Positions 14,727-31,308 of a stretch of 64,000 nt of DNA are shown here, piece after piece (position 1 is the stretch's first letter; every line of letters starts with the position of its first letter). The notes below the pieces were generated by a model. It was not told the DNA's origin. It saw nothing but the letters and a program-made list of their open reading frames with translations, and ran no database searches. This DNA comes from Alphaproteobacteria bacterium (lineage in GTDB: Bacteria; Pseudomonadota; Alphaproteobacteria; Rhizobiales; Aestuariivirgaceae), in assembly GCA_028868695.1 (NCBI GenBank), contig JAGWTZ010000001.1:1-64000 (forward strand), in the 5' to 3' direction. The position numbers and the translations under genes were made by a program.

Positions 14727-16008
14727 ATTTGGTATCCATTGTTATCCCGATCGACTTCAGAAACTCGGTTGGCAAAATGCCGCCCGCGCACACAATCACC
14801 GCCTCATTGGCAATGGTCTGCACCTGGCCGTCAAAGGCCAGGTCCAGGCTCTTCTCGCCAATGGTCTTGACGGTGGATTTGAGCCGCACCGTCAGCCGCC
14901 CGCTGGCCTGCTGTGCCGCCACTTTTTCCCGGTTCTTGCTCTTGGCGCGGCCAAAGGCCTCCGACCGGTAGGAGAGGGTGACCGTGGTGCCCGGCTGCTC
15001 GGCAATCGAGGTTGCCGCTTCCAGCGCCGAGTCGCCGCCGCCCACCACCAGCACATGCATGCCCTTGTATTGCTCGGGGTCGATCAGCTGATACACCACC
15101 TTTTTCTGGTCTTCGCCCGCCACGCCAAGCTGGCGCGGCGTGCCGCGCCGCCCGATGGCCAGAAGCAGCGCGCGGCATTTGCGCTGGGCAACGGTGGAAT
15201 GCACCTCGAAGCCATCGCCCGCCGCCACAACCTTCTCCACCCGCTCGCGGTAGCTGATCTGCAGCTGCTGCTCGCCCTCGATCTTCTTCCAGAATTCCAG
15301 CAGCGTCTCCTTGGAAACTTCGCGGAAATTGGTTTGCCCCACGATGGGCAGCTTCGCCGGCGCCGTCATCACCACCTTGCCGCGCGGATATTTGAACACC
15401 GTGCCGCCAAGGTCATCCTGCTCCAGCACCAGATAGGAAAGCCCCGCCTGCTTGGCGGCCAGTGCTGCTGAAAAGCCAGCCGGCCCCGCGCCGATGATGA
15501 TCACATCAAGCCTGTCTTGTTGCCCAAGGCCCGGCAGCTTCCTGATGTTTTCCACCGCCTGCTTGCCTTGCTCCACGGCGTTGCGGATCAGGCCCATGCC
15601 GCCCAGCTCGCCTGCAATGAACACGCCCGGCACGTTGGTCTGGAAATCGGGGCCCACCAGCGGCAAATCCACGCCGCGCGTGGCGGTGCCGAAAACCAGG
15701 TCAATGGCGTCCATCGGGCAGGCGGTCTTGCAGGCGCCATGGCCGATGCAATGGGTGGGCTCGATCAGGCTCACCTTGCCATTGATGATGCCCAGCACAT
15801 GGTTCTCCGGGCAGGCCCGCACGCAGGTGCCGCAGCCGATGCACACATCAGGGTCCACCGATGGGTGCAGCGAGGCAGGTTCCGTCAGCCCCGCCTCAAC
15901 AGCGGCGGTCTGCACCGCAAGGCTGGTGCTCTCGGTCTGGCGCTGCCATTTGAAATAGTAATACAGCACGCCGGCCATCATGAAGAAATATGGCCAATAA
16001 TAGAGCAT
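14713..16008 (-). CDS. Membrane-anchored ferredoxin-type Fe-S / FAD pyridine-nucleotide oxidoreductase
   Basis: A 431-residue protein with an N-terminal membrane helix (residues 3-19, YYWPYFFMMAGVLYYYF). A ferredoxin-like domain follows with Cys56, 59, 62 and 66 (CIGCGTCVRACP), and a second motif in which the second Cys is replaced by His90 (C87, H90, C93, C97). From about residue 168 comes a thioredoxin-reductase-like flavoprotein: GAGPAG for FAD, VVGGGDSALEAA for NAD(P)H, and AVIVCAGGILPTEF. It probably exchanges electrons between NAD(P)H or ferredoxin and a membrane partner. It follows ccmI by 18 bases and overlaps the Sel1/ankyrin gene. The direction of electron flow is not known. Confidence 0.82.
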   Translation of the reverse strand: MLYYWPYFFMMAGVLYYYFKWQRQTESTSLAVQTAAVEAGLTEPASLHPSVDPDVCIGCGTCVRACPENHVLGIINGKVSLIEPTHCIGHGACKTACPMDAIDLVFGTATRGVDLPLVGPDFQTNVPGVFIAGELGGMGLIRNAVEQGKQAVENIRKLPGLGQQDRLDVIIIGAGPAGFSAALAAKQAGLSYLVLEQDDLGGTVFKYPRGKVVMTAPAKLPIVGQTNFREVSKETLLEFWKKIEGEQQLQISYRERVEKVVAAGDGFEVHSTVAQRKCRALLLAIGRRGTPRQLGVAGEDQKKVVYQLIDPEQYKGMHVLVVGGGDSALEAATSIAEQPGTTVTLSYRSEAFGRAKSKNREKVAAQQASGRLTVRLKSTVKTIGEKSLDLAFDGQVQTIANEAVIVCAGGILPTEFLKSIGITMDTKYGTA

Positions 16009-16026
16009 GGCTCAGGCGCCCGTCAC

Positions 16027-17523
16027 TCAGTTGAGCCCAAGGTCGCCAGCCGCGGCTTTCAGCTTGTCCTGCGCCGCGGCATCGCCATCAAAGGCTTTCA
16101 GCGCGTCGGCATAGGCGGCCTTGGCCTTGTCGGTGTCTTTGAGCACCTGATAGGCCCGCATCAGGCGCGTCCAGCCGTCCGCGTCCTTCGGGTTGGCCTT
16201 CAGCCGGTCAGCCAGCTTCTGCACCATGCCGAGGATCATCGCCTGCTGGTCGGCGGAAATCTGCGGCGCGGCCGAACCATCGGCCGGGGCAGGGGCAGCA
16301 GCGGCTGCGCCAGCGCCAGCACCAGCCGCCTGCTTGGCGGTCGCCTCTTGCGCCACTTGCTTCAGGCCGTCTTGCGTGGCCTTGTCATCCTTGAAGATGT
16401 CCAGCGCCTTGGCCAGCGCTTCGTCAGCGCCCTTTTGGTCTCCGGTCACGATCAGCGAGCGGATCATCATCGCCCAGCCGTCGCGGTCCTTGGGGTTGGC
16501 CTGAAGCTTGGCCGCCAGCTGCGCGATCATGCCGGAAACCATGGCGTTCTTTTCACCCTGGCCGATCTGCTTTTCGGCAGGCGCGGCGGCTGCGGCCCCG
16601 GCGTTGAGCTGCGCGCTCACATCCTTGCCCAAGGCCTTGGCCAGGTCAGCGGCCCGGGCCTTCACGTCATCGCGCCAGCCGGCATCGGCGGGGGCGTCGG
16701 CCAGCAGCGCCAGCCAGCGGTCCAGTGCGCCTTGCTGGTCGCCCGATTGCTCATGGCCCAGCGCGTCATAGAAGCGGGCGCGCAAGTCCTTGGGCTGCTT
16801 GGCCAGCACGTCGTTGATCAAGTCCTGCGCCTTGGGCGTCACCGTGCCTTGCGCCGCCTGCACGATGGATTCCGCCATCGCCGACTTGTAGTCCACATTG
16901 TTGGGGTCAATCGCCAGCGCCTTGCCATAGGCGTCAACCGACTCCTGGTATTTCTGCGTGTTGAACAGCGCCCAGCCCAGCGTGCGCCAGCCTTCGGCGT
17001 TGCCCGGGTCGGCCTTCAGCTTGTCCTTGAGCTTGGCGATCACCGCATCCACCTGCGCCTGCGTGGCGGGCTGCTGGCCCGCAGCGGCATTTTGATCCGA
17101 AGCCTGCTGCTGCGCGGAGGCCTGCGGCGTGGCCTGCTGTGCGGCGGCTGCCTGCGGGGCCGGCGTGGCCGAAGGCATGTTCGGGCTGCCCATGTAGCCA
17201 TAGAGATTGACGCCCCCGAGAATGACGAGGCCCGCCGAAGCCACCAGCGCCAGCGTGCGCCAGCCGTTTGAGATGGGCCTTGCCGCCACGCTGTCGCGCT
17301 GCAGGGCGTCGATGCGGCGGTTGATCTCGGCCTTGGCGGCCTGCGCTTCCGGCGCGTTGATCACGCCGGCTTCCATGTCACGCTCCACCTCTTTGATCTG
17401 GTCTTGATACACCGCCGATTCCTGCGCCGTGCCGCCCGCCTGCTCATAGCGGCGGATCAGCGGAATCGAGATGGCCACGGCAGCGGCGCTGCACAGCATG
17501 GTGGAGAGAAGCCAAAAGTTCAT
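16027..17523 (-). CDS. ccmI: Cytochrome c maturation protein CcmI
   Basis: A 498-residue apocytochrome-binding protein of the Ccm haem lyase complex. Two membrane helices (about residues 2-20 and 88-107) flank a cytoplasmic segment rich in heptads (YQDQIKEVERDMEAGVI), and a periplasmic TPR domain follows, with units such as AEGWRTLGWALFNTQKYQES and DRDGWAMMIRSLIVTGDQKG. Ala/Gln-rich linkers at about 120-155 and 410-440 make it longer than typical CcmI. It starts 4 bases after the ccmH stop. TPRs bind the C-terminus of apocytochromes before haem attachment. Confidence 0.88.
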   Translation of the reverse strand: MNFWLLSTMLCSAAAVAISIPLIRRYEQAGGTAQESAVYQDQIKEVERDMEAGVINAPEAQAAKAEINRRIDALQRDSVAARPISNGWRTLALVASAGLVILGGVNLYGYMGSPNMPSATPAPQAAAAQQATPQASAQQQASDQNAAAGQQPATQAQVDAVIAKLKDKLKADPGNAEGWRTLGWALFNTQKYQESVDAYGKALAIDPNNVDYKSAMAESIVQAAQGTVTPKAQDLINDVLAKQPKDLRARFYDALGHEQSGDQQGALDRWLALLADAPADAGWRDDVKARAADLAKALGKDVSAQLNAGAAAAAPAEKQIGQGEKNAMVSGMIAQLAAKLQANPKDRDGWAMMIRSLIVTGDQKGADEALAKALDIFKDDKATQDGLKQVAQEATAKQAAGAGAGAAAAAPAPADGSAAPQISADQQAMILGMVQKLADRLKANPKDADGWTRLMRAYQVLKDTDKAKAAYADALKAFDGDAAAQDKLKAAAGDLGLN

Positions 17524-17527
17524 CAGG

Positions 17528-17962
17528 TCAGTCTTCCTTGAGAATGTCGTTGGTTGTTTCGCCCTCTTCGGGTGCGGGCTGCTGGCGCAAATAGGCATAG
17601 GCCGCGCCCAGCCCCGCCAGCATCAGCAGGAAGGGCAGCAGCCACAGCAGCGCCGTATCCGCCTGGAAGGGCGGCTTCAGCAGCACATAATTGCCATAGC
17701 GCTTCACCACATAGGCCATCACCTGCTCATTGCTGTCGCCTGCCGTCAGCCGCTCGCGCACGATGACGCGCAGGTCCTTGGCCAGCGACGCGTTGGAATC
17801 ATCGATGGATTGGTTCTGGCAAACCAGGCAGCGCAGGTTCTGGCTGATCTCGCGCGCCCGTGCTTCCAGCGCCGGGTCGGCCAGCATTTCATCGGGCATC
17901 ACCGCATGCGCAAGGCCAGAGCCCAGAATGAGGAACAGGGCAAACAGCAGCTTCCGCATCAT
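17528..17962 (-). CDS. ccmH: Cytochrome c maturation protein CcmH
   Basis: A 144-residue periplasmic thiol-disulfide protein with a signal peptide (ends HAV), the redox motif RCLVCQNQSIDDSNA and one C-terminal membrane anchor (TALLWLLPFLLMLAGLGAAY). It reduces the CXXCH cysteines of apocytochromes or resolves mixed disulfides with CcmG. The start overlaps the ccmG stop by 4 bases (ATGA). A second ATG one codon downstream is equally possible. Confidence 0.93.
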   Translation of the reverse strand: MMRKLLFALFLILGSGLAHAVMPDEMLADPALEARAREISQNLRCLVCQNQSIDDSNASLAKDLRVIVRERLTAGDSNEQVMAYVVKRYGNYVLLKPPFQADTALLWLLPFLLMLAGLGAAYAYLRQQPAPEEGETTNDILKED

Positions 17963-18498
17963 GACGCGCCCGATTCCTTGATCAGCGGCTCGATCTGCTT
18001 GTCCCAGATTTCCGGCGTCAGCGGCCCCGGCACGCGCAGCCGCACCTTGCCTTGCTTGTCCACCACAAAGGTTTCCGGAGCACCCGAAACCCCAAGGTCA
18101 ATCGCCGTGCGCCCGCCCTGGTCGGTGCCGATCTGCGCATAGGGGTTGCCATAGGTGGCGAGATACTGGTTAGCGTCATCCGCCGTGTCTTTCCAGTCAA
18201 TGCCCACGAGGTTGAAGCGCGCATCCTTGCTCACCCGCATCAGCAGCGGGTGTTCATAGCGGCAGGAAACGCACCATGAGCCAAACACATTGACCAGCGT
18301 CAGCTTGCCACCCTTCATCGCCTCGCTGGAGAGGTTCGGCTGGCCCGGCGCCAGCGGCGGCAGGTCAAAGGCGGGCAAGGGCTGGTTCAGCAGTGTCGAG
18401 GGCAGAACCTTCGGGTCGCGGTTCAGGCCCACAAACAGCACCACGCCCATCACCGCAAACAGGCCAACGGGCAAAAGGGTCGAAAGCCGCAATCTCAT
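17959..18498 (-). CDS. ccmG: Thiol:disulfide interchange protein CcmG (DsbE)
   Basis: A 179-residue thioredoxin-fold protein tethered by one N-terminal membrane helix (LSTLLPVGLFAVMGVVLFVG). The active site is GSWCVSCRYEHP, and the cis-Pro loop region GVSGAPETFVVD marks the CcmG/TlpA group. It supplies reducing power to apocytochrome cysteines in the periplasm. The start at 18498 is chosen because its ATG overlaps the ccmF stop (ATGA); earlier in-frame codons would run into ccmF and lack a membrane segment. Confidence 0.93.
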   Translation of the reverse strand: MRLRLSTLLPVGLFAVMGVVLFVGLNRDPKVLPSTLLNQPLPAFDLPPLAPGQPNLSSEAMKGGKLTLVNVFGSWCVSCRYEHPLLMRVSKDARFNLVGIDWKDTADDANQYLATYGNPYAQIGTDQGGRTAIDLGVSGAPETFVVDKQGKVRLRVPGPLTPEIWDKQIEPLIKESGAS

Positions 18499-20492
18499 GT
18501 ATTCGCTCCAATCGCCGCCGCCTGCGGCAAGATCACCGGCTTGGCCTTCTGCGCCACGCCCACGCGGAAGCGCCGGTCCGAAAGCGAGATGAAGCCGCCC
18601 ATCGCCATGATGAAGCCGCCGATCCACAGCCACGGCGCGCCCGGATGATAATAAAGCCGCACCGTATAGCCGCCATTGTTGTCGGCATCGCCCAGCGCGA
18701 TATAGGTATTGGAAATCAGGTTGGTGCGGATGCCGGTCTGGTTGGTCTGCTGGCCCTGCACGGGATAGAAGCGCCGCTCCGCCGTCATGATGCGGAACAC
18801 CTGCCCGCCGGATGAAAGCTCAAACGTGCCGCGCTCGGCCTGATAGTTGGGTCCCTTCACCTGGTCCACCGCCGTCAGCTTCACGCCATAGGCGCCGATC
18901 TGCGTCTGGTCCCCCACCTTCATGGAAAGGATGTTCTCCTGCTGCCATGTCGTCACCACGCTGATCGCCATCAGCACCAGACCGATGCCAAGATGCCCGA
19001 ACACCAGCCCGAAATAGGCCCGCGGCGTTGAGGAAAGAATGCGCCAGGATTCTGCCAGCGGAACCACGCCCAGCTTGGTGCGCTTCACAAACACCCAGAG
19101 CGAGCCCGCCACAATCCACGCCGCAAGGCCAACGCCCGCCGCCGTGAACAGGTGCTTGCCCAGCGACACGCCCGCCACAACGAGCAGCAGAACGATGCCC
19201 GCCACCAGCGGCCAGTTCAGCTGCTTCAGCGCCGGGCCAAGGTCATCGCGCTTCCATTTCAGGAAGGGGCCAATCACCATCGTTGCCAGCACGGGGATGA
19301 ACAGCGGCACGAAGGTGAGGTTGTAATAGGGAACGCCTACCGAGATCTTGTCCTTGCCCATCAGGTCAATGAACAGCGGCCAGAAAGTGCCGAAGAACAC
19401 CGTCGCCGCCGAGACCACCAGGAACACGTTGTTGAGCAGCAGACCGCTCTCGCGGCTCACAATGCCGAAGGGCACGCCCTTGCGCACCTGCGGGCTGCGG
19501 ATGGCAAACAGCAGCAGCGCCCCGCCGGTGGAGCCAAAGATGATGGCAAGGATGTAAAGGCCGCGCGCCGGGTCCGTGGCGAAGGAATGCACCGAGGTCA
19601 AAACGCCCGAGCGCACCACAAACGTGCCAATCAGGCTCAGGGAGAAAGTGAGGATCGAAAGCAAAATCGTCCAGTTCACCAGCGCGTGCCGCCGTTCCAC
19701 CACCAGTGCCGAATGCAGCAGCGCCGTGCCCACCAGCCATGGCATGAAGGACACATTCTCCACCGGGTCCCAGAACCACCAGCCGCCCCAGCCGAGGATG
19801 TAATAAGCCCAGAATGAGCCCAGCGTGATGCCCAGCGTCAGGAAACACCAGGCCAGCAGCACCCAGGGCCGCACCCAGCGCGCCCAGGCCGCGTCCACCT
19901 TGCCTTCAATCAGCGCCGCAACGGCAAAGGCAAAGGCCACCGAGAAGCCCACATAGCCCATGTATAGCGCCGGCGGATGCAGCGCGAGGCCGGGGTCCTG
20001 CAGCAGCGGGTTCATGCCGCTGCCATCGGGCGGCGGGTTGGCTTCGCGGATGAAGGGGTTGGAGGTGAAGGCCACGAAGGAAAGGAAGGCGGCGGCGATC
20101 ATGCCCTGGATGGCCAGCACCCGCGCCTTCAGGCTGGGCGGAATGTTGACGCCGAACAGCGCAATCAGCGCCGCGAAGATCACCAGGATCAGCACCCACA
20201 GCATCATCGAGCCTTCATGGTTCGCCCAAAGGCCCGTCAGCTTGTAGATCAGCGGCTTGTCGATCTGCGAATTCATCACCACAAGGCGCACGCTGAAGTC
20301 GTCAGTCATGAAGCAATAGGCCAGCGCGCCGAAGGACAGCGCAACGAGCAGGAATGAAGTGACGCCCGCATAACTCGCCAGCGCCATCAGCCCGCGGTCC
20401 TGCCTGTGCGCGCCAATGAGGGGCAGCGTGGCTTGAACGAGGCTCGTCATCAGGGCGAGCAGCAACGCAAATTGACCGATTTCAGCAACCAT
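18495..20492 (-). CDS. ccmF: Haem lyase CcmF
   Basis: A 665-residue polytopic inner-membrane protein that attaches haem to apocytochrome c thiols. The tryptophan-rich WWD domain is clear at WGGWWFWDPVENVSF, and the conserved haem-liganding His residues appear in LWANHEGSMMLW, LALHPPALYMGY, GTALLHSALVVER and SVHSFATDP. Size and hydrophobic pattern fit about 14-15 membrane helices. It is the first gene of the leftward operon, 173 bases from the divergent cytochrome operon. No ccmE or ccmABCD is present beside it. Confidence 0.95.
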   Translation of the reverse strand: MVAEIGQFALLLALMTSLVQATLPLIGAHRQDRGLMALASYAGVTSFLLVALSFGALAYCFMTDDFSVRLVVMNSQIDKPLIYKLTGLWANHEGSMMLWVLILVIFAALIALFGVNIPPSLKARVLAIQGMIAAAFLSFVAFTSNPFIREANPPPDGSGMNPLLQDPGLALHPPALYMGYVGFSVAFAFAVAALIEGKVDAAWARWVRPWVLLAWCFLTLGITLGSFWAYYILGWGGWWFWDPVENVSFMPWLVGTALLHSALVVERRHALVNWTILLSILTFSLSLIGTFVVRSGVLTSVHSFATDPARGLYILAIIFGSTGGALLLFAIRSPQVRKGVPFGIVSRESGLLLNNVFLVVSAATVFFGTFWPLFIDLMGKDKISVGVPYYNLTFVPLFIPVLATMVIGPFLKWKRDDLGPALKQLNWPLVAGIVLLLVVAGVSLGKHLFTAAGVGLAAWIVAGSLWVFVKRTKLGVVPLAESWRILSSTPRAYFGLVFGHLGIGLVLMAISVVTTWQQENILSMKVGDQTQIGAYGVKLTAVDQVKGPNYQAERGTFELSSGGQVFRIMTAERRFYPVQGQQTNQTGIRTNLISNTYIALGDADNNGGYTVRLYYHPGAPWLWIGGFIMAMGGFISLSDRRFRVGVAQKAKPVILPQAAAIGANT

Positions 20493-20665: not shown

Positions 20666-21622
20666 ATGTCAGTGGCTGCGTTGAAATCGCAAACCCGGAA
20701 GGAGGAGAGGCCAGCTTCTCCCGCCTCACCGGATTTACGCGGCCCCCATTCCAAAATTCCGCGCGGCGCTGAAAAAACCGCAAAGAAGAGCTTCGGCGCC
20801 ACCGCCGTGGGCATGGCCACCGTGGCCCTCATCACCTTCGGTTTCATGATCCGCCGCCAGGAGGTTCTGGTGCCGGGCGAGGGGCTTGGCTACACGCTGG
20901 GCCTTGTGGGCGGCCTGATGATGCTCCTGCTGCTGGTCTATCCCGCCTTCAAGCGCTCGCGCTTTTTTGGCACAGGCAAGAAGGCCGCCTTCTGGTTCCA
21001 GTGGCACATGCTGCTCGGCATTGCCGGGCCGCTGCTCATTTTCTTCCACTCGAATTTCTCGCTCGGCGCAATGAACAGCAATGTCGCGCTGTTTTCGATG
21101 ATCCTCGTTGCGGGCAGCGGCGTCATCGGCCGTTACATATATACGCACATCCATTCGGGCCTTTCGGGCGCGCGCCTTGATGTGGGCAGCCTGCTCACCC
21201 AGGCCACCAAGCTCATGGCCGGCATTGAGGAAGATGTCGGCGGCTCCGGCGGCCTGCTCACCAAGGCGCTGGCGGATTTCAGCACCAGGGCCACGCCGAA
21301 ACGGCCGGGCATTCTGCAAAGTGCCTTGCATGTGATGATGATGCCGGTGCAGCTGCGCCTCTCACAATCTCACATCATGGCGCAGGTTCACCGCAGCATC
21401 GCCCACAATGGCAAGGCGCAGAACTGGACCGCCGCCGAAGTGAAGGCCCATACCCGCGCCGCCAAGAATCATGTTAGCGAGTTCATGCTGGCGGTCTCGC
21501 GCGCCGCGCAGTTCGCGTTCTGGGAGCGGATGTTCGCCTTGTGGCATGTGCTCCATGTCCCACTTTTTTTTCTCTTGTTGGTCAGTGGCGTAATTCACGT
21601 AGTCGCAGTTCACTTGTACTGA
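20666..21622 (+). CDS. Multi-pass membrane protein with cytochrome-b-like histidine pairs
   Basis: A 318-residue protein with a soluble N-terminal tail of about 40 residues and hydrophobic helices near 45-62, 75-95, 109-131, 138-160 and 290-318; an amphipathic stretch of about 130 residues separates the fourth and fifth. His114 and His128 lie 14 residues apart in helix 3 and His297 and His311 lie 14 apart in the last helix, with further His at 161, 163, 294 and 316. HX13H in two helices is how b-type cytochromes hold two stacked haems across a membrane. The named family was not recognised. It begins the cytochrome operon, 19 bases before the 18-haem gene, so it probably passes electrons between quinone or the Fe-S/FAD protein and the periplasmic cytochromes. 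Confidence 0.7.
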   Translation: MSVAALKSQTRKEERPASPASPDLRGPHSKIPRGAEKTAKKSFGATAVGMATVALITFGFMIRRQEVLVPGEGLGYTLGLVGGLMMLLLLVYPAFKRSRFFGTGKKAAFWFQWHMLLGIAGPLLIFFHSNFSLGAMNSNVALFSMILVAGSGVIGRYIYTHIHSGLSGARLDVGSLLTQATKLMAGIEEDVGGSGGLLTKALADFSTRATPKRPGILQSALHVMMMPVQLRLSQSHIMAQVHRSIAHNGKAQNWTAAEVKAHTRAAKNHVSEFMLAVSRAAQFAFWERMFALWHVLHVPLFFLLLVSGVIHVVAVHLY

Positions 21623-21641: not shown

Positions 21642-23006
21642 ATGAGCGGCCGTCTTGCAGCCATTCTTGTTGTGGCAATGGCAATCTTGTTTGGCCTTGC
21701 GGCCCCGGCCGCGGCCTCCACCGCGGTGGAGAAGCTGATGATGCCGGGCCAGCTTTCACAGGCCCACGCCAAGCTTGAGGAAGATTGCGCCAATTGCCAC
21801 AAGGTGCTGCAAAAAGCCGCACAGTCCAGCCTTTGCATCTCCTGCCACAAGGATGTGCAGAAGGATCTCGATGCCAAGACCGGCTTCCACGGCCGAGATG
21901 TCATCGTCGCCAAGTCGGAATGCTATGCTTGCCATGTCGAGCACAAGGGCCGCGACAATCCCGAAATCCAGTTTGAGCCTTCAACCTTCAACCATGGCGA
22001 AACCCGCTTTGCGCTGGAAGGCGGCCACAGCCTCGTGCCTTGCGCCTCCTGCCACAAGCCCGGCAAGAAATACCGCGAAGCCCCGCAGGCCTGCGCCGAT
22101 TGCCACGGCGAAAAGCAGCCGCACAAGGGCAATCTCGGCAAGCAGTGCGAAACCTGCCACAGCGTTGAAAGCTGGAAGAAGCTGAAGCCCTTCGACCACA
22201 ACAAGACCAAATATCCGCTGCGCGGCGCCCATGCCAAGGCGGCTTGCGTGGGCTGCCATGCCGGCGAGATCTATGCGGGCCTCTCCCAGGCCTGCAATGA
22301 CTGCCATGCCATCAGGGATGTGCATGCCCGAAAGTTCGGCCTGAAGTGCGAGGATTGCCACAGCCTGGAAGCCTGGAAGCCCGCCAAGTTTGATCACGCC
22401 AAGACCCGCTTCCCGCTGCAGGGCGCCCATGCCAAGGCCCAATGCGCCGATTGCCATGGCGGCAACATCACCGCGAAGCTCGCCGTCACCTGCATCTCGT
22501 GTCACAAGGCGCAGGATGTGCACAAGGCCCAGCTGGGCGAGGGCTGCGGCGATTGCCACAATGCCTCGGCCTGGCGCGCCAATGTGAAGTTTGACCACGG
22601 CCTCACGTCCTATCCGCTCACTGGCCTGCATGCGCTGGTGGCCTGCGAGGGTTGCCATGAAACCCGCGCCTACAAGGGGGCCGCCACCGATTGCTATGCT
22701 TGCCACCGCAAGGCCGATGTGCATGAGGGCCGCTTCGCCACGGCTTGCGCCAATTGCCACAGCCCTCTGGGCTGGAAGCGCGTCACCTTCGATCACGCCA
22801 GGGATGGCCACTATGCTCTGGATGGCGCCCACGCCAAGGTGGGCTGCTATGATTGCCACACTGCCAAGGCGGTGCAGAGCGCCAAGCTGCCCACCGATTG
22901 CTACTCCTGCCACAAGGTCAAGGATGTGCACCGCGGCGCCTTCGGCACCAACTGCGCCCGCTGCCACACGACTCAGACCTTCAGGGCGGCGATCATTCGT
23001 CAATGA
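21642..23006 (+). CDS. Exported multihaem c-type cytochrome, 18 CXXCH motifs
   Basis: A 454-residue protein with a Sec signal peptide (cleaved near APAAAS) and 18 CXXCH haem-attachment motifs, from CANCH near residue 49 to CARCH near the C-terminus. A unit of the form FDHxxTxYPLxGxHAxxxCxxCH occurs about five times, for example FDHAKTRFPLQGAHAKAQCA, each supplying extra His residues as distal ligands. It belongs to the cytochrome c3/doubled-CXXCH type of family. It probably works in the periplasm between the haem-b-like membrane protein and the giant cytochrome encoded 116 bases downstream. Substrate and potential are unknown. Confidence 0.92.
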   Translation: MSGRLAAILVVAMAILFGLAAPAAASTAVEKLMMPGQLSQAHAKLEEDCANCHKVLQKAAQSSLCISCHKDVQKDLDAKTGFHGRDVIVAKSECYACHVEHKGRDNPEIQFEPSTFNHGETRFALEGGHSLVPCASCHKPGKKYREAPQACADCHGEKQPHKGNLGKQCETCHSVESWKKLKPFDHNKTKYPLRGAHAKAACVGCHAGEIYAGLSQACNDCHAIRDVHARKFGLKCEDCHSLEAWKPAKFDHAKTRFPLQGAHAKAQCADCHGGNITAKLAVTCISCHKAQDVHKAQLGEGCGDCHNASAWRANVKFDHGLTSYPLTGLHALVACEGCHETRAYKGAATDCYACHRKADVHEGRFATACANCHSPLGWKRVTFDHARDGHYALDGAHAKVGCYDCHTAKAVQSAKLPTDCYSCHKVKDVHRGAFGTNCARCHTTQTFRAAIIRQ

Positions 23007-23122: not shown

Positions 23123-26100
23123 GTGATTCGGCGTGGGCGGCTTTGGGCAAAGCGATCACCCGCCATTTGCGTAATGAAAACCGGACCAAGGGGGCTGGCA
23201 AAGCGATTTGCCAGACAAGCAGTTTTGTCTTTGCGCGAGGCAGCCAGATTCCTGCACGTGATCGCAACTTGTGTTGCCACCCTTGTGCTTGCCTTAACGC
23301 TTCTCGCCCTGCCTTCTGTGGCGGAATCCTCCAACACCTCCGGCAAGACCGATTCCATCACCACCGCCGCCACCACTGCGGCCCCCGCCATCACGGTGGA
23401 CCAGAACTTCAACCACCAGGCCACGCGCTTCCCGCTCGAGGGCATGCACATCAAGGTCACCTGCGAAACCTGCCACAAGGGCGGCGTGTTCAAGGGCGTG
23501 CCGAGGGATTGCCTGGGCTGCCACAACGGCACCATGGCCACCGGCAAATCCGTCACCCACCCGGCCACCACCAATGTCTGCGCCGATTGCCACAACACGG
23601 TGGATTTCTCGCAGGTCCACGTCGATCACTCCAAGATCAGCACTGGCTGCTTCTCCTGCCATGATGGCAAGACCGCCGAAGGCAAGAACAAGACCCACAT
23701 CAAATCCACCAAGAAGTGCGAGGATTGCCACGTCACTTCGTCGTGGATCGTGGTGCGCTTCAACCATGAAACCACCAATGAGCCCTGCCAGGCCTGCCAT
23801 GATGGCCTGCACACCACGGGCAAGCCCTTCACCCACATCCGCTCCACCAACGACTGCGCCCAGTGCCACCGCACGGTGTCCTGGAAGGTTGGCGTGTTCG
23901 ATCACACCGGCGTGGTTGATGGCTGCTTCAAGTGCCATGACGGCATCTCGGCCACCGGCAAATCCGGCAACCACCTGCCCACCAGCAATGATTGCCAGAA
24001 CTGCCACACCACCGTGGCCTGGCGCCCGGCGCATTTTGACCACACCGACATCAGCGTTCAGGGCCGCGTCTGCGTGGATTGCCATGATGGCGTGCGCGCC
24101 ACTGGCCGCTCCTCGCAACATTTCGCCACCAACACCAATGATTGCGCGCTCTGCCACACCAACTTCACGGCCTGGAAGCCCGCCAAGTGGGATCATCAAT
24201 ACGCGCTGGATCTGCCCACCTGCTTCAATTGCCACACCGGCCAGCACCCGCCCGCCCAGGGCAAGGTGAATGCGCCAACGCCGCACGTGCCGGCCTCGAA
24301 TGACTGCACGGCCTGCCACTCCGACACCAATTTCAGCACCTGGGCCGGCGCCAAGATGAACCATGATGGCATCACCACGGGCTGCGCCAACTGCCACAAC
24401 AACACTTATATTGTGGGCGGCAAGCCGGTGCAGGGCAAAACCCCCACCCATCTGAAAACCACCAACACCTGCGAAAGCTGCCACACCATTGGTGCCGTGT
24501 GGAAGCCAGCCATCATGCCGTTCAACCATCCGCAGGCGATTGGCACTTGCGTCTCCTGCCATGATGGCAACCAGTCCATCTCCACCGGCCCGATCATCGG
24601 CAAGCTGCAAGGCCCCAAGGGCCAGCACCTTGCCACCACCGATGCCTGTGATTCCTGCCACAACACCACGGCCTTCGTGCCCGCCCTGCGCTTTGACCAC
24701 ACCCAGGCCAGCAACGTGGCCAACTGCATCAGCTGCCACAATGGCGTGCAGGCCACGGGCATGCTCACCGGCCCGTCAAAGTCGCACGTGCCGGTGAACA
24801 GCACGGTCTGCACCGATTGCCACACCAATTTCTCCGCCTGGGTGCCTGCGGTGTTTGATCACGCGAAGGTCTCGGGCGTCTGCCTCACCTGCCACAACGG
24901 CACGATGAAGATTTCCGCTGGCCTGCTCACCTCAAAGCCGCTCACCCATATTCCCACCCAGCTCGGCTGCGAAAATTGCCATGTGACCACAACCTGGAAA
25001 ACCTCGCTGTTCGATCACTCGCAAATCGGCACGGCCACTTGCGTCTCCTGCCATGACGGCGTGCAGGCCACCGGCAAGAAGAACGCCACCATCGCCCACA
25101 TCCCCAGCTCCGACACCTGCTCGGATTGCCACAGCACCACCGCCTGGTCGCCTGTCGCCTTCGATGCCGCCAAGCATGCGCTGGTCAGCCCCAATTGCAT
25201 TGATTGCCACAACGGCACCCAGGCGATCAGCACGGGCAAGCTCGTCTCCAAGCCCACGCCGCACATCCTGACCTCGGCCAACTGCGCGGATTGCCACAAG
25301 TCCTTCACCACCTGGGTCACCACTTTTGACCATGCAACGATCGGCACGGCCACTTGCGTCTCCTGCCACAATGGCGTTTCCGCCAAGGGCAAGACCAACG
25401 CCACCGTGGCCCATATTCCCTCGTCGGATGATTGCGCCGCCTGCCACAAGAATTTCACCGCCTTCTCGCCGGTGGCCTTCGGTGCGGCGGAACATGCGCT
25501 GGTCTCCGCCACCTGCCTGAACTGCCACAACGGCACCCAGGCGATCAGCACGGGTAAGCTCGTCTCCAAGCCCACGCCGCACATTCCCACCACGGCGAAT
25601 TGCGCGGATTGCCACACCTCCTTCACCACCTGGGTGACGACGTTCAACCACGCCAACATGGGCACAGCCACGTGCGTCTCCTGCCATGACAGCAAGCTGG
25701 CCACGGGCAAGCCGCTCGCCCACGTTCCGGCCTCCAACAATTGCCAGAACTGCCACACCACCACGGCCTGGCTGCCGGTGATCCTGCCCTTCAACCATGC
25801 CGATGCCGGCGTCGTCGGCCAGGCTTGCGAAAAGTGCCATGACAATGTGAACGCCACTGGCCGCGATGCCACCCACATTCTCACAAGCACATCGGCCTGC
25901 GCCAACTGCCACACCAGCACCACGCTGTGGGCCACCATCAGCGCCAGCTTCCACAGCTATGTGACCGGCACCTGCTTCTCCTGCCACGATGGCGGCCACA
26001 AGACGGCCACCAAGCCCATCACCGGCAAGGATCTCGCCCATCTGGCCACTACCAATGTCTGCGAAAACTGCCATGTGGCCAACAACACCTCATGGAAGCC

Positions 26101-28735
26101 CGCCAAGGTGTTTGACCACACGCAGACAACCGCCACCTGCTTCACCTGCCATGATGGCGCCCACACGCTCTCCACCGGCCCGGTGGTCGGCAAGATCGGC
26201 GGCCATGTGCCCACCTCGAATGATTGCGCGCTGTGCCACTCCAGCACCAGCACCTTCAAGACCTGGGTGTTCAGCCATTCCGACCCCACCGTCTATGCCG
26301 CGCAATGCGTGAGCTGCCATGATGGCCAATATGCCGGCGTGGTGGCCCGCTCGCTGGCGGCCACAGACCCCAAGGCCCCCACCGGCCACGCCACTTCGGC
26401 CTTCAATTCCTGCGCCAACTGCCACACCACCACGGCCTTCATCCCGGCGCATTTCGATCACACGGCCGTCATCGCGGGCGGCACGCCTTGCGCCAGCTGC
26501 CATGACACCGGCAAGCCCAACTATGTGGTGCGCCCGGCCAACCACATCGCCATCGTCGGCGGCGTCGATGCCAATGGCAATGATTGCGCCAAGTGCCACA
26601 CCACCGCCACCTGGGTCACCAACGCCAAGCCGGACCATTCGTCCTTCACCGCCTCCACCAATTGCTTCTCCTGCCACAATGGCACCACCGCGATGGGCAA
26701 GGGCCCCACCCATTTCGGCACCGACAACACCTGCGGCGCCTGCCACAACACCACGGCCTTCGTGCCCGCCAACACCTTCGACCACACCCACATGAACCCC
26801 GGTTCAAAATGCGTGGATTGCCATGACGGCGCCCATGCACCAGCACTCGGCAAGTCGTCCTATCCCGCGCATCTCAAAACCTCGAACACCTGTGAAAACT
26901 GCCACGCGGGCTACACCAGCTGGGTCACCACCAAGTTTGACCACACCGACACCGTGGTGGCCGCCGCCACCTGCTATTCCTGCCATGACGGCGCCCACGC
27001 CCCGGCCATCACCCGCTCGCCCGCGCATATCGCCAGCACCACCAATTGCGCCAACTGCCACAACACCGTGAACCCCGGCTTCAAGCCTGCCGTGGCGGTC
27101 GATCACTCCCAGGTCACCGGCACCTGTTTCTCCTGCCATGATGGCGGCCATTCGATTTCAACTGGCCCCGTGCTCGGCAAGGATGTCAAGCACATGCAGA
27201 CCACCAACACCTGCGAAAGCTGCCACAACACGGTGAAGTTCACGCCCGCCGCGGCGGTGGATCACACCCAGGTCATCGGCACCTGCTATTCCTGCCATGA
27301 TGGCGGCCATTCGATTTCGACAGGCCCGGTGCTGGCCAAGGATGCCAAGCATCTGAACACCACCAACAACTGTGTGAATTGCCACACCACGGTGAAGTTC
27401 CAGCCCGGCCTGCAGCCGCGCCAGACCGATCACACCCAGACGATCGGCACCTGCTTCTCCTGCCACAATGGCACGCTGGCCATTTCCACAGGCCCCATTG
27501 TCGGCAAGCTGCAAGGCCCGAACGGCACGCATCTGCCCACCGCCGACACCTGCGACACCTGCCACGCCACCACATCCTTCATCCCCGCCCTGGCCTTTGA
27601 CCACAGCGCCGTGAAGGCCGGCACCTGCTTCACCTGCCACAACAATGTGCAGGCCATCGGCAAGAACGCCAGCCACCTGCAAACCCTGAACACCTGCGAT
27701 GATTGCCACACCACCGTGGTGTGGAAGCCCGTGCCCGTGGCCCAGTTCAAGCACACCTCAACCATCGGCACCTGCTGGTCCTGCCACAACGGCACCACGG
27801 CGATTTCCACCGGCAAGCTCACCACCAAGTCAGCGGGCCACATTGCTTCCAGCACGGCCTGCGATGCCTGCCACCGCAGCACCGCCAACTGGAATGTCAC
27901 CTCCGTGCAGGTTGACCATACCCAGACCACCGGCGCCTGTATCACCTGCCACAGCGGAGCCATGAAGCTCAGCCTCACCGGCGGCCTGATCTCCTTCAAG
28001 TCGGCCACCCATGTGAACACCACCAACACCTGCGATGCCTGCCACGCCGCGGGCGGCAAGCCTTGGGCGCCGGTCGTGGCCTTTGACCACACCCAGGCCC
28101 TGGGCGCCTGCTTCGGCTGCCATGACGGCGCGCACAAGACCTCGGTGCAAACCATCACGCCGAAGGACGCAGCCCACCTCACCACCACCAACCTGTGCGA
28201 GGCCTGCCACGTCACCACCGCCTGGGCGCCGGTTGCCGCCGCCAAGTTTGACCATAGCCAGGCCGTCGGCACCTGCGGCTCTTGCCATGATGGCGTGCAC
28301 AAGCTCGGCACCACCGGCACGCTGCTCGATCACAAGAGCCCCACGCACTTCATCACCACGCATGACTGCGCCGATTGCCACACCACCACCACCTGGAACC
28401 CGATGTTGAACTACACCCACACATCGGCCGCCTATGTGCTGCACTATTTCGGCACCACCGCCGCCACCTGCATCACCTGCCACAAACAGAACAATGAAAA
28501 GATCACCTATGCCCAGCCCGGCCTGTTCCCCAACTGCGCCGCCTGCCATTCCACGGCCTTCAAGCCCTCGGCCCACCTGAAATATTCCAAGCCGACGACT
28601 GTCTATTACACCTTCACCGAGCTGAAGGACTGCACAGGCGCCTGCCACATCTACACCGACCAGACGCTGACCAAGATCCAGACGTCAAAGCCCACCTATT
28701 CGCACCATCGCCCGTCCTTCACCAGTTGGAACTAA
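23123..28735 (+). CDS. Giant exported multihaem c-type cytochrome, 65 CXXCH motifs
   Basis: A protein of 1,870 residues from the GTG at 23123 (AGGTGA lies 4 bases upstream) or 1,853 from the ATG at 23174. A hydrophobic export signal spans about residues 44-68 and ends PSVAES. By eye there are 65 CXXCH motifs, first CETCH near residue 113, plus one CX3CH (CTGACH) near the C-terminus. The body is a tandem array of two-haem units of about 53 residues, with the pattern FDHTxxxGTCxSCHDG then THLxTTNTCxxCHxTxxWxP, so nearly every haem has a nearby His for bis-His ligation. No catalytic domain, lipobox or membrane anchor is seen. It is probably an electron wire or store. The family is not one I can name. 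Confidence 0.9.
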   Translation: MIRRGRLWAKRSPAICVMKTGPRGLAKRFARQAVLSLREAARFLHVIATCVATLVLALTLLALPSVAESSNTSGKTDSITTAATTAAPAITVDQNFNHQATRFPLEGMHIKVTCETCHKGGVFKGVPRDCLGCHNGTMATGKSVTHPATTNVCADCHNTVDFSQVHVDHSKISTGCFSCHDGKTAEGKNKTHIKSTKKCEDCHVTSSWIVVRFNHETTNEPCQACHDGLHTTGKPFTHIRSTNDCAQCHRTVSWKVGVFDHTGVVDGCFKCHDGISATGKSGNHLPTSNDCQNCHTTVAWRPAHFDHTDISVQGRVCVDCHDGVRATGRSSQHFATNTNDCALCHTNFTAWKPAKWDHQYALDLPTCFNCHTGQHPPAQGKVNAPTPHVPASNDCTACHSDTNFSTWAGAKMNHDGITTGCANCHNNTYIVGGKPVQGKTPTHLKTTNTCESCHTIGAVWKPAIMPFNHPQAIGTCVSCHDGNQSISTGPIIGKLQGPKGQHLATTDACDSCHNTTAFVPALRFDHTQASNVANCISCHNGVQATGMLTGPSKSHVPVNSTVCTDCHTNFSAWVPAVFDHAKVSGVCLTCHNGTMKISAGLLTSKPLTHIPTQLGCENCHVTTTWKTSLFDHSQIGTATCVSCHDGVQATGKKNATIAHIPSSDTCSDCHSTTAWSPVAFDAAKHALVSPNCIDCHNGTQAISTGKLVSKPTPHILTSANCADCHKSFTTWVTTFDHATIGTATCVSCHNGVSAKGKTNATVAHIPSSDDCAACHKNFTAFSPVAFGAAEHALVSATCLNCHNGTQAISTGKLVSKPTPHIPTTANCADCHTSFTTWVTTFNHANMGTATCVSCHDSKLATGKPLAHVPASNNCQNCHTTTAWLPVILPFNHADAGVVGQACEKCHDNVNATGRDATHILTSTSACANCHTSTTLWATISASFHSYVTGTCFSCHDGGHKTATKPITGKDLAHLATTNVCENCHVANNTSWKPAKVFDHTQTTATCFTCHDGAHTLSTGPVVGKIGGHVPTSNDCALCHSSTSTFKTWVFSHSDPTVYAAQCVSCHDGQYAGVVARSLAATDPKAPTGHATSAFNSCANCHTTTAFIPAHFDHTAVIAGGTPCASCHDTGKPNYVVRPANHIAIVGGVDANGNDCAKCHTTATWVTNAKPDHSSFTASTNCFSCHNGTTAMGKGPTHFGTDNTCGACHNTTAFVPANTFDHTHMNPGSKCVDCHDGAHAPALGKSSYPAHLKTSNTCENCHAGYTSWVTTKFDHTDTVVAAATCYSCHDGAHAPAITRSPAHIASTTNCANCHNTVNPGFKPAVAVDHSQVTGTCFSCHDGGHSISTGPVLGKDVKHMQTTNTCESCHNTVKFTPAAAVDHTQVIGTCYSCHDGGHSISTGPVLAKDAKHLNTTNNCVNCHTTVKFQPGLQPRQTDHTQTIGTCFSCHNGTLAISTGPIVGKLQGPNGTHLPTADTCDTCHATTSFIPALAFDHSAVKAGTCFTCHNNVQAIGKNASHLQTLNTCDDCHTTVVWKPVPVAQFKHTSTIGTCWSCHNGTTAISTGKLTTKSAGHIASSTACDACHRSTANWNVTSVQVDHTQTTGACITCHSGAMKLSLTGGLISFKSATHVNTTNTCDACHAAGGKPWAPVVAFDHTQALGACFGCHDGAHKTSVQTITPKDAAHLTTTNLCEACHVTTAWAPVAAAKFDHSQAVGTCGSCHDGVHKLGTTGTLLDHKSPTHFITTHDCADCHTTTTWNPMLNYTHTSAAYVLHYFGTTAATCITCHKQNNEKITYAQPGLFPNCAACHSTAFKPSAHLKYSKPTTVYYTFTELKDCTGACHIYTDQTLTKIQTSKPTYSHHRPSFTSWN
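25025..25657 (+). repeat. Tandem duplication of a four-haem module inside the giant cytochrome
   Basis: Two consecutive in-frame units, 25025-25339 (315 bases) and 25340-25657 (318 bases), start with ATCGGCACGGCCACTTGCGT. They share long near-identical blocks, such as the region after ATTGATTGCCAC/CTGAACTGCCAC that reads AACGGCACCCAGGCGATCAG. Each encodes about 105 residues with four CXXCH motifs. This is the most recent-looking expansion in the gene. Confidence 0.8.
27131..27457 (+). repeat. Tandem two-haem repeats inside the giant cytochrome
   Basis: TCCTGCCATGATGGCGGCCA begins at 27131 and again at 27290, giving a 159-base (53-codon) unit with two CXXCH motifs. A more diverged copy starts at 27458 after a 168-base unit. 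It shows the basic building block of the protein at the DNA level. Confidence 0.75.
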
Positions 28736-28977: not shown

Positions 28978-31308
28978 ATGAAGAAGTTGCTCGATCCAAG
29001 ATTCCTGGTCAGTTTTCCCGCCTTGCTGGTGGCTGCGCACGGCACAGCCATGTCCCAGCCCACGCTCGACCATTTGCTGGCCACCGTTAACGTTACCGGA
29101 TCGTCAAGCTGCGCCCATGTTGAGCTGAAGCTCAACCGGCCCATCAATGTCACGGGCGCTGATCCTGCCGGCAAGGGCCTCGACATTGCCGTGCACATTG
29201 AGCCCCTGGCCACCACGCTGCCTTCGGAATCGGGCGCCAGCCTGAAGGAGGCTGCCTCAGTGCCGCCGCAGAACGCCGCGGGCCTCGGCGGCGTGGTCTA
29301 TGATCCCGCCGCGCCGCAAGGCCCGGTCATCCATTTCGTTTTCGCCAAGGTCATGGCCTATCAGCTGAAGCGCGATGAGGATAACCGCCATGTGGTGATT
29401 GACGTGGCTGGCCCCGCCGATGCCCAGGCCTGCCTCGGCAAGGCCGTGGATGGCGGCGATGCCCCGAAGGGCGATCTCAAGAAATCTTTCGACAGCGCCG
29501 ATGCATCAGCCGCAGGCCCCGCCACGCCGGGTCAGGATGCGCAGGCCGCCCTTGATGATGGCAAGAAGCAATTGGCGGCGGGGGATTTCAACCGCGCCAC
29601 CGCCTTCTTCACCAAGGCCGTCTCGCTGGGCACAGGCCGCGTGAAGCAGGATGCGCAGGAAATGCTCGGCCTCGCGCATGAGAGGGCCGGCCAGTTCGCC
29701 TTCGCCCGCGCCGAATATGAAACCTATCTGGGCCTCTATCCCTCAGGGCCGGATGCCGCCCGTGTGAAGGATCGTCTCGCCGGCGTCACCGCCGCGATGG
29801 AAGATCAGGCCAACAAGCAATTCGCCCTGCACCAGGCCAAGACAGCAGGCACCCAAACCTCCAACACCGATGGCAAGGGCGACGGCGTCAGCCAGCAGGG
29901 CCAAACCATTGGCCCGGGCAATGTCGCGCAATTCATGAAGCCTGGCCTGCGTTCCAACCTCGCCGAGCCGGTGAAGGACCCCAATGCCTGGACTTGGGCC
30001 AAGAACGGCAGCATCGCGCAATATTACTACCGCGACGACAACTTCACGCCCTCAACCCCCGGCGGCCCGCTGTTCGGCCAGCATCATGTGTTCCAGAACG
30101 AAGCCCTCACCAGCGCTGATTATTTCATCCATGGCGAGAACAAGGATTACGCTGTTGAAGGCCGCATCTCCGCCTATAACGAGCAGGGCTTCGGCGATCA
30201 GGCCAACATCGCCAATTCCAGCCTGTCCACGCTTTATGTCGATGGCAAGCTGAAAGGCCCGGGCCTTGGCGCGCGCATTGGCCGCCAATCCAAAAGCACA
30301 GGCGGCGTCTTCGGCCGCTTTGATGGCGGCGTGCTCACCTATGAGGGCGTGAAGAACTTCAAGGCCCAGGCGGTGGCGGGTTCGCCCGTCTATTCGCGCA
30401 GCGCCACGCCCTTTGCCGACAACCGCTATTTCTATGGCGCCAGCCTCGAATACACCGCCCCCTCCAAGGATTGGTCGGCCAACATCTATGCCATCGAGCA
30501 AAATGTCGGTGATATCGTGGACCGCCGCGCCATCGGCGGCGAAGCGCGCTACACCGGCGCCAAGCTGATGCTCTATTCGGCGGCCGATTATGACATCTTC
30601 TTCCATGAGCTGAACAACGCTTACGTCACCGGCACCTGGCTGCCGCGCCAGGGCACCACGGTTTACGCCACGGTGGATTACCGCAAGCTGCCCTTCCTGC
30701 TCACGTCAAATGCGCTGATGGGCCAGCAGAACTTCACCAGCCTGCAAACCCTGGTGGATGGCGTGGGGCTGGATAACGTCAATGAATGGGCGGGAGACCG
30801 CACCGCCTCCTCGCAATCCGTCTCGCTCGGCGCCAGCCAGCAGTTGAATGACAAGTGGCAGGCCACGGTGGATGCCACGCTGGCCTATTACACCGGCACG
30901 CCCGCTTCCGGCGGCGTGGATGCCACGCCTGATCCCGGGCTGGATTTCTATGGCTCTGTCTCTCTGAACGGCACCGGCATTTTCCGCCTGAATGACACGG
31001 TCTCCACCGGCCTGCGCTACGCCAACTCCTCCTCCGGCGTCACCTACATGGCCGATGCTTATGTGCGCTTCCCCGTCACCGAGAAGTTCCGCTTGGGCCC
31101 GCGCTTCCGCGTCTCGCTGCGCGATGCCAAGACCAGCGACCAGGTGCAGTATCTCGTCATGCCCAGCCTCAGCGCCAGTTACAAGATCAACAAGAGCTGG
31201 AGCCTTGAGTCCGAACTGGGCTTCCGCTGGCAGGATACGGTGACAGGCGGCATCGGCAACCAGATGCTCGATGTGCTGGCCACCGCGGGTTACCGCTTCG
31301 AGTTCTGA
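28978..31308 (+). CDS. Outer-membrane beta-barrel protein with periplasmic TPR domain
   Basis: A 776-residue protein. Residues 1-27 form a signal peptide. About 30-150 form a beta-rich domain, and about 180-270 hold TPR-like helices (DDGKKQLAAGDFNRATAFFT, then AQEMLGLAHERAGQFAFARA). From about 335 to the end there are alternating aromatic/polar strands typical of a transmembrane barrel (YFYGASLEYTAP, KLMLYSAADYDIF, SVSLGASQQL), finishing with the terminal Phe signature AGYRFEF used by the BAM machinery. It follows the giant cytochrome on the same strand and may be the pore through which electrons leave, as MtrB or PioB do; sequence likeness to those was not evident. Confidence 0.75.
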   Translation: MKKLLDPRFLVSFPALLVAAHGTAMSQPTLDHLLATVNVTGSSSCAHVELKLNRPINVTGADPAGKGLDIAVHIEPLATTLPSESGASLKEAASVPPQNAAGLGGVVYDPAAPQGPVIHFVFAKVMAYQLKRDEDNRHVVIDVAGPADAQACLGKAVDGGDAPKGDLKKSFDSADASAAGPATPGQDAQAALDDGKKQLAAGDFNRATAFFTKAVSLGTGRVKQDAQEMLGLAHERAGQFAFARAEYETYLGLYPSGPDAARVKDRLAGVTAAMEDQANKQFALHQAKTAGTQTSNTDGKGDGVSQQGQTIGPGNVAQFMKPGLRSNLAEPVKDPNAWTWAKNGSIAQYYYRDDNFTPSTPGGPLFGQHHVFQNEALTSADYFIHGENKDYAVEGRISAYNEQGFGDQANIANSSLSTLYVDGKLKGPGLGARIGRQSKSTGGVFGRFDGGVLTYEGVKNFKAQAVAGSPVYSRSATPFADNRYFYGASLEYTAPSKDWSANIYAIEQNVGDIVDRRAIGGEARYTGAKLMLYSAADYDIFFHELNNAYVTGTWLPRQGTTVYATVDYRKLPFLLTSNALMGQQNFTSLQTLVDGVGLDNVNEWAGDRTASSQSVSLGASQQLNDKWQATVDATLAYYTGTPASGGVDATPDPGLDFYGSVSLNGTGIFRLNDTVSTGLRYANSSSGVTYMADAYVRFPVTEKFRLGPRFRVSLRDAKTSDQVQYLVMPSLSASYKINKSWSLESELGFRWQDTVTGGIGNQMLDVLATAGYRFEF

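Follow-up and report, generated by a model that had tools for sequence, protein, structure and literature searches.

The giant multihaem cytochrome encoded in the window (the whole 64,000-nucleotide stretch of DNA analyzed here) is not a lone novelty. As judged from the sequence, it belongs to a cluster of four genes, for an inner-membrane protein (IMP), a periplasmic multihaem cytochrome (pMHC), the giant itself (eMHC), and a porin, that matches PCC3, a system described in 2017. Taking everything together, we think it likely that the giant open reading frame (ORF) encodes the subunit predicted to be extracellular in a PCC3-type porin-cytochrome conduit, which would link NAD(P)H or quinone with the outside of the cell, in either direction. 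New here is that the gene for a predicted [4Fe-4S]/FAD/NAD(P) oxidoreductase (FerFAD) tracks PCC3. Also new are the predicted haem numbers of the family, with a near-constant pMHC set against a variable eMHC, and a relative with 144 motifs.

The giant cytochrome ORF

The eMHC gene and its parts, all on the + strand, are as follows.

23123..28735, +: giant multihaem cytochrome (eMHC), 1,870 codons, 65 CXXCH and one CX3CH
23258..23314, +: hydrophobic core of the predicted eMHC signal peptide, residues 46-64 (hydropathy scan)
23408..23524, +: conserved N-terminal cap, FxHxxTxFPLxGxH...CxxCH...FKGxPxxCxxCH, residues 96-134
23462..28549, +: array of 65 CXXCH, mostly in two-haem units, residues 114-1809
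25025..25686, +: four-haem block duplicated in tandem at the DNA level, 318 bp x 2.1
27080..27407, +: two-haem block duplicated in tandem at the DNA level, 159 bp x 2.1
28469..28732, +: conserved C-terminal cap with CX3CH, residues 1783-1870

The original prediction had described a single ORF at 23123-28735 with 65 CXXCH motifs, and both the exact coordinates and the motif count were confirmed. In addition, a CX3CH motif at residue 1837 (28631-28648), near the C terminus, brings the total to 66 predicted haem sites. When the eMHC residues were shuffled 1,000 times, CXXCH occurred 0.75 times on average and 6 times at most, compared with 65 in the real protein. An even spread of motifs and regular His residues before them had also been described, and both were borne out. 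The CXXCH spacing is 16 to 35 residues, and at 60 of the 66 motifs the nearest non-motif His lies 6 to 12 residues upstream of the first Cys, with 44 of 66 having one at -7. We infer that this pattern fits bis-histidine ligation.

The odd and even motifs have different neighbor consensus sequences, mostly CHTT..W/F..P versus CHDG/CHNG, with exceptions, and therefore the main unit is a two-haem repeat of about 50 to 55 residues. The mature protein has 27.3 residues per haem and is rich in T, A, S, and G. The start codon is uncertain (GTG at 23123 or ATG at 23174). After the hydrophobic stretch at residues 46-64 comes SVA/ES, with no lipobox by eye, and the earlier statement that the eMHC has neither a lipobox nor a catalytic domain holds. 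The 16 Cytochrome_C7 matches in the genome are confined to the eMHC and the pMHC. A promoter and terminator scan gave nothing above chance.

Because the repeats are about 79-84% identical and could confuse assembly, the exact haem number of the eMHC may be off by a block. The same identity is the argument for regarding the whole ORF as a decaying or mis-assembled repeat without function, which we consider extremely improbable. The only non-motif cysteines are residues 16 and 50, and no CXXC without H was found in the whole ORF. Every Cys of the mature part thus lies within a motif, with none degenerate and none stray, and the same architecture is found in relatives from other genomes, all of which speaks against decay.

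Identification as a PCC3-type cluster

The other three genes of the cluster flank the eMHC gene on the same strand.

20666..21622, +: inner-membrane protein (IMP), 318 aa, predicted two-b-haem electron carrier, with two WX3HX13H and SGXXG
21642..23006, +: periplasmic multihaem cytochrome (pMHC), 454 aa, 18 CXXCH, signal-peptide-like N terminus
28978..31308, +: predicted porin of the outer membrane, 776 aa, ending in Phe, with a TPR-like N-terminal part (from homology and C terminus)

PCC3 was defined by He et al. in 2017 (PMC5566968) as an IMP, a periplasmic and an extracellular multihaem cytochrome (MHC), and a porin, and it occurs in several classes of Proteobacteria, with Sideroxydans lithotrophicus ES-1 and Leptothrix cholodnii SP-6 among the strains that have it (PMC5566968). 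In that description, the IMP has about 300 aa, SGXXG, two WX3HX13H, and five transmembrane helices and is linked to quinones in the model; the MHCs are rich in T, S, A, and G and repetitive, with at least one haem site per repeat and 22 to 39 residues per haem. The window shares the four components, the IMP motifs in a protein of the 300-aa class, the residues-per-haem ratio, the composition, and the repeats. It differs in haem number, with 18 sites in the pMHC against a published median of 21 and 66 in the eMHC against a median of 34 (PMC5566968). Extreme extracellular subunits in the same source have 63 (Amphritea atlantica) and 85 sites (Agromonas oligotrophica), the latter called the largest number in a single protein; the 66-site eMHC is therefore large but not a record. 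Elsewhere, 10 to 35 haem sites are given for the extracellular subunit in Gallionellaceae (PMC10734462) and 10 to 57 for the cytochrome subunits of the Leptothrix group (PMC13386937).

In the IMP of the window, WX3HX13H lies at residues 110 and 293 and SGXXG at 151; both W residues, the four His residues, S151, G152, and G155 are invariant among six aligned sequences. A simple hydropathy scan gave seven partly overlapping stretches (six within 44-158 and one at 295-313) that are readable as five helices. At cutoffs of 0.001 for Pfam and 1 for NCBIfam, family searches with the IMP returned nothing. Scanning for the IMP with one genome per species gave 28 loci (numbered with L below; genomes are numbered with G). 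The pMHC of the window is 38-60% identical to 19 pMHCs from other loci. A PCC3 porin is expected to be a beta-barrel; for the porin of the window, there are a C-terminal Phe and homologues in 14 of the 28 IMP loci by phmmer (13 by stricter tblastn). Its TPR/BamD-like matches are weak and under the curated cutoffs, and it had no match in the plasmid collection. Further downstream are genes for a DeoC-like aldolase, an aldehyde dehydrogenase, and a BKACE protein, which appear unrelated.

This context bears on what had been proposed for the giant. Reading it as a wire or capacitor was fair, yet it was inference only and missed the PCC3-type four-gene setting. Spanning the periplasm, also proposed for the giant, is more likely the task of its 18-motif neighbor, since the giant corresponds to the PCC3 subunit that is predicted to be extracellular.

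Comparison with other electron conduits

MtrCAB, MtoAB, and PioAB, like the window, combine a porin with a periplasmic and (in Mtr) an extracellular multihaem cytochrome, but the haem number and the porin differ, and no match to the MtrB/PioB porin (PF11854) was found in the genome. The DmsE/MtrA decahaem model (TIGR03508, about 10 haems and about 258 positions) scored 225 bits against a cutoff of 192.2, yet it did so across 12 stretches of the 66-haem repeat protein, and we rejected this assignment. Profile searches of the Protein Data Bank (PDB) matched MtrC and other multihaem chains, 14 sequences with the eMHC C-terminal profile (MtrC chains, best E 2.2e-10) and 8 with the pMHC profile. 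These matches are read as shared motif spacing rather than family membership.

The original prediction had also suggested that the giant builds OmcS-type filaments. The filaments of OmcS, OmcE, and OmcZ are likewise c-type haem chains thought to carry electrons outside the cell, and the predicted export signal, the bis-His-type motifs, and weak profile matches such as 8k9e_A (E 6e-4, eMHC C-terminal profile) and 8e5g_A (E 0.004, pMHC profile) speak for polymerization of the eMHC; 8e5g is, we take it, an archaeal cytochrome filament. However, known filaments of this kind have small polymerizing subunits of six to eight haems, whereas here one chain is far longer and the genes of a porin and a periplasmic partner adjoin. 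A phmmer search of the whole eMHC against PDB chains gave no match, so the direct sequence search lends the suggestion no support, and the profiles match multihaem chains only weakly. Taken together, we regard filaments of this type as very unlikely.

Structure prediction, which had been called for earlier, did not decide how the haems are arranged. For the C-terminal 518 residues of the eMHC with 11 relatives, the mean pLDDT was 37.9 and the pTM was 0.20, a low-confidence model that is unusable and speaks neither for nor against haem stacking. The pMHC with 19 relatives also gave low confidence (mean pLDDT of 51.5, pTM of 0.25), and neither model is good enough for folds to be compared.

Haem numbers among relatives

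At least one ORF with at least six CX2-4CH motifs was present in 21 of the 28 IMP loci. Where contigs are long enough, the order IMP, pMHC, eMHC, porin recurs in the relatives, with three exceptions: in L025 and L028, the IMP is downstream of the porin, and in L026, FerFAD follows the pMHC, with the eMHC and porin not in view. Among 16 tabulated clusters, the pMHC has 18, 20, or 21 motifs, and in L024 it has 24. In contrast, the 17 tabulated eMHC ORFs range from 7 to 144 motifs, and the 13 with a C-terminal cap range from 18 to 144. Thus, the periplasmic subunit is near-constant (18 to 24 motifs), whereas the outer, doubly capped subunits vary from 18 to 144. ORFs cut by contig ends (L016, L027, and L039) were left out of the eMHC totals, and L024 was replaced by the longer L049.

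The N-terminal cap is recognizable, with variations, in all 17 eMHC ORFs, and a C-terminal cap with a final CX3CH or CX4CH is present in 13. The four without it (L020, L028, L033, and L050, the last of which runs off its stretch) were left out of both C-terminal alignments; the first had 12 sequences, including L022 with its masked residues, and the one used for folding omitted L022 and added L041. In L020, right after the PCC3 cluster but on the opposite strand, a further multihaem ORF (15419-17653, - strand) shows at least 27 motifs before the end of the locus truncates it.

The largest relative is an ORF of 4,086 residues with 133 CXXCH, 1 CX3CH, and 10 CX4CH, or 144 distinct sites, a count that rests on one assembly containing repeats. 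It comes from a groundwater gammaproteobacterial metagenome-assembled genome (contig JACQWY010000013.1, L049:977-13237, also seen in L024) with the same cluster arrangement. These 144 predicted sites exceed the 85 that PMC5566968 gives as the single-protein maximum, a comparison with that 2017 figure only. A look at the literature on haem-number records gave nothing decisive above 85; some of the gene neighborhoods in PMC11475568 have more than 100 motifs, counted per neighborhood and not per single protein.

Within the genus, the IMP is present in 3 of 37 genomes. All three carry an 18-site pMHC, and the eMHC has 66 sites in the window, 20 in L051, and at least 56 in L050, which is cut by the stretch end. 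The outer subunit therefore changes rapidly in length, whereas the inner one stays constant. The scattered occurrence suggests gain or loss of the whole PCC3 unit.

Haem counts that are large and vary freely, from 18 to 144 across the 13 ORFs with a C-terminal cap, would also suit a capacitor, whose haems would serve chiefly for electron storage close to the cell and less for long-range conduction; storage has been proposed in print (PMC10734462). Storage and conduction are not exclusive, but storage alone does not explain the porin, the near-constant pMHC, or the caps at both ends. We therefore find it unlikely that the eMHC is mainly a capacitor.

A FerFAD gene accompanies PCC3

Upstream of the cluster, on the opposite strand, are the gene for FerFAD and a group of cytochrome c maturation genes.

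14713..16008, -: [4Fe-4S]/FAD/NAD(P) oxidoreductase (FerFAD), 431 aa, proposed fifth component, with Fer4 and Pyr_redox domains
16027..17598, -: CcmI/CycH-type TPR protein (domain match)
17528..17962, -: CcmH (domain match)
17959..18633, -: CcmG/DsbE-like thioredoxin (Redoxin match; name inferred from position)
18495..20492, -: CcmF (cytochrome c maturation), the sole CcmF_C match in the genome

FerFAD has a ferredoxin-type CX2CX2CX3C motif, a second such motif in which His replaces one Cys, and a YpdA/thioredoxin-reductase-type flavin/NAD(P) domain. An N-terminal hydrophobic stretch is visible by eye, below the threshold of the hydropathy scan, and FerFAD is probably membrane anchored. The ccm genes (16027-20492, -) lie between the FerFAD gene and the cytochrome cluster and are divergent from the cluster. 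Because the genome has a single CcmF_C match, CcmF presumably serves all c-type cytochromes, with no dedicated copy. Ccm genes were within reach in 2 of the 28 IMP loci (L019 and L024), and both congeners have one close to the cluster (CcmF in L050 and CcmI in L051). The gene for a Sel1/ankyrin-repeat protein (13374-14726, -) adjoins the FerFAD gene, and a similar ankyrin stretch is present in 8 of the 28 relative loci.

Among the 37 congeners, FerFAD (E up to 1e-60) was found in exactly the 3 with an IMP match. If the two were independent, the chance of a 3-in-3 overlap among 37 would be 1 in 7,770 (by hand), which is a rough guide given shared ancestry. In a sample of 199 genomes of the order, with up to 8 candidates scored per genome, three had FerFAD, and these are the ones in which a strong IMP match lies beside an 18-motif cytochrome. 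FerFAD was not found in the other five IMP-matching genomes of the order. G059 and G128 have strong IMP matches with no neighboring cytochrome in view. In three genomes of the order (G132, G171, and G180; loci L011, L012, and L013), weak IMP relatives adjoin seven-motif cytochrome ORFs.

The 28 IMP loci gave a similar result. Of the 21 with an MHC, 19 carry FerFAD, the exceptions (L025 and L041) being near contig ends, and so do L017 and L043, which are cut before any MHC could show. FerFAD is absent from the five IMP loci without an MHC: L021 (only 706 bases upstream), L029, L031 (a 6.4-kb contig), L034, and L036. In L029, L034, and L036, the IMP homologues have about 10 kb on each side, in which no multihaem cytochrome, porin, or FerFAD was found; perhaps these represent a second use of the IMP family.

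The main text of He et al. (PMC5566968) does not contain the words "FAD," "ferredoxin," or "maturation" and brings up Fe-S for PCC4 only. In the passages of PCC3 papers that were covered, we found no mention of a FerFAD-type partner.

Direction of electron flow

We weakly favor outward flow, with Fe(III), humics, or other external acceptors taking up the reducing power, rather than Fe(II) oxidation. FerFAD is an NAD(P) enzyme by its domains and therefore counts for outward flow. The only RuBisCO-large match in the genome is a 422-residue ORF (L068:1096-2364), followed by a kinase-like ORF. By our reading of its sequence, it is a RuBisCO-like protein, presumably one of sugar-acid breakdown, and this too counts for outward flow. 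Two haem-copper oxidase matches in the genome indicate an oxygen respirer, which fits either direction.

The opposite reading is that PCC3 is an inward wire through which electrons from Fe(II) or minerals reach the quinone pool, which is how the PCC3 authors model it. PCC3 was found via the genomes of iron oxidizers, and the two-haem pattern of the IMP is cytochrome b-like (PMC5566968). Furthermore, the IMP of one of the PCC3 copies in Sideroxydans CL21 is reported to rise with Fe(II)-oxidizing ability (PMC12442390). However, both PCC3 clusters of Sideroxydans ES-1 are reported to be down during Fe(II) oxidation (PMC8788666), the genome of the window has a putative RuBisCO-like protein only, and the conserved FerFAD points to NAD(P)H, though such an enzyme could run backwards. 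Given these points, we consider inward flow possible but rather doubtful.

Published data on PCC3 function are limited. In a proteome table for ES-1 (PMC12016527), Slit_1448, the one of the two extracellular subunits shown, has a value of zero in each of the eight columns, most of which are magnetite cultures; we list this against our best explanation. A 2025 paper (PMC12442390) states that the function of PCC3 is yet to be tested, and the passages of the PCC3 literature that were covered yielded no functional demonstration of any PCC3. A Methylobacter anode paper was set aside as functional evidence because its cluster, as described there, is Mtr-type.

Proposed mechanism and implications

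In the mechanism that we propose with outward flow in mind, electrons would move between NAD(P)H and the IMP by way of FerFAD on the cytoplasmic side, and the two b-haems of the IMP would carry them across the inner membrane. The 18-haem pMHC would cross the periplasm, the porin would give the cytochrome chain a way through the outer membrane, and the 66-haem eMHC would continue electron hopping outside the cell, the duplication of blocks of two and four haems having set its length. The ten-haem MtrA is about 100 Å long (quoted in PMC5566968); by simple proportion, 18 haems might span about 18 nm and 66 haems up to about 66 nm, if in line.

He et al. (PMC5566968) drew the likeness of the IMP to ferric reductases and NADPH oxidases, and because of it, the inner b-haem might be fed by a cytoplasmic flavoprotein. 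The likeness that they drew lies in two HX13H pairs in a membrane protein; here, a nearby gene for a flavin NAD(P) enzyme adds to it. In the window, by contrast, two separate genes encode the membrane and flavin parts, and the flavin protein, which has a [4Fe-4S] head, resembles thioredoxin reductase and YpdA. As a tentative proposal, to which we give somewhat less than an even chance, PCC3 would be a five-part machine in which FerFAD and the IMP act as a split NADPH-oxidase-like injector. It would feed a fixed-length pMHC and, beyond it, a freely evolving extracellular wire of 18 to at least 144 haems that changes by duplication of two-haem blocks between its caps.

The co-occurrence of FerFAD with PCC3 would provide a concrete, testable entry point for electrons in PCC3, and with it a reading other than Fe(II) oxidation. 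In addition, two species of the same genus, with capped eMHCs of 20 and 66 predicted sites on an 18-site pMHC, would form a natural length series in which to ask whether a longer eMHC conducts further or stores more.
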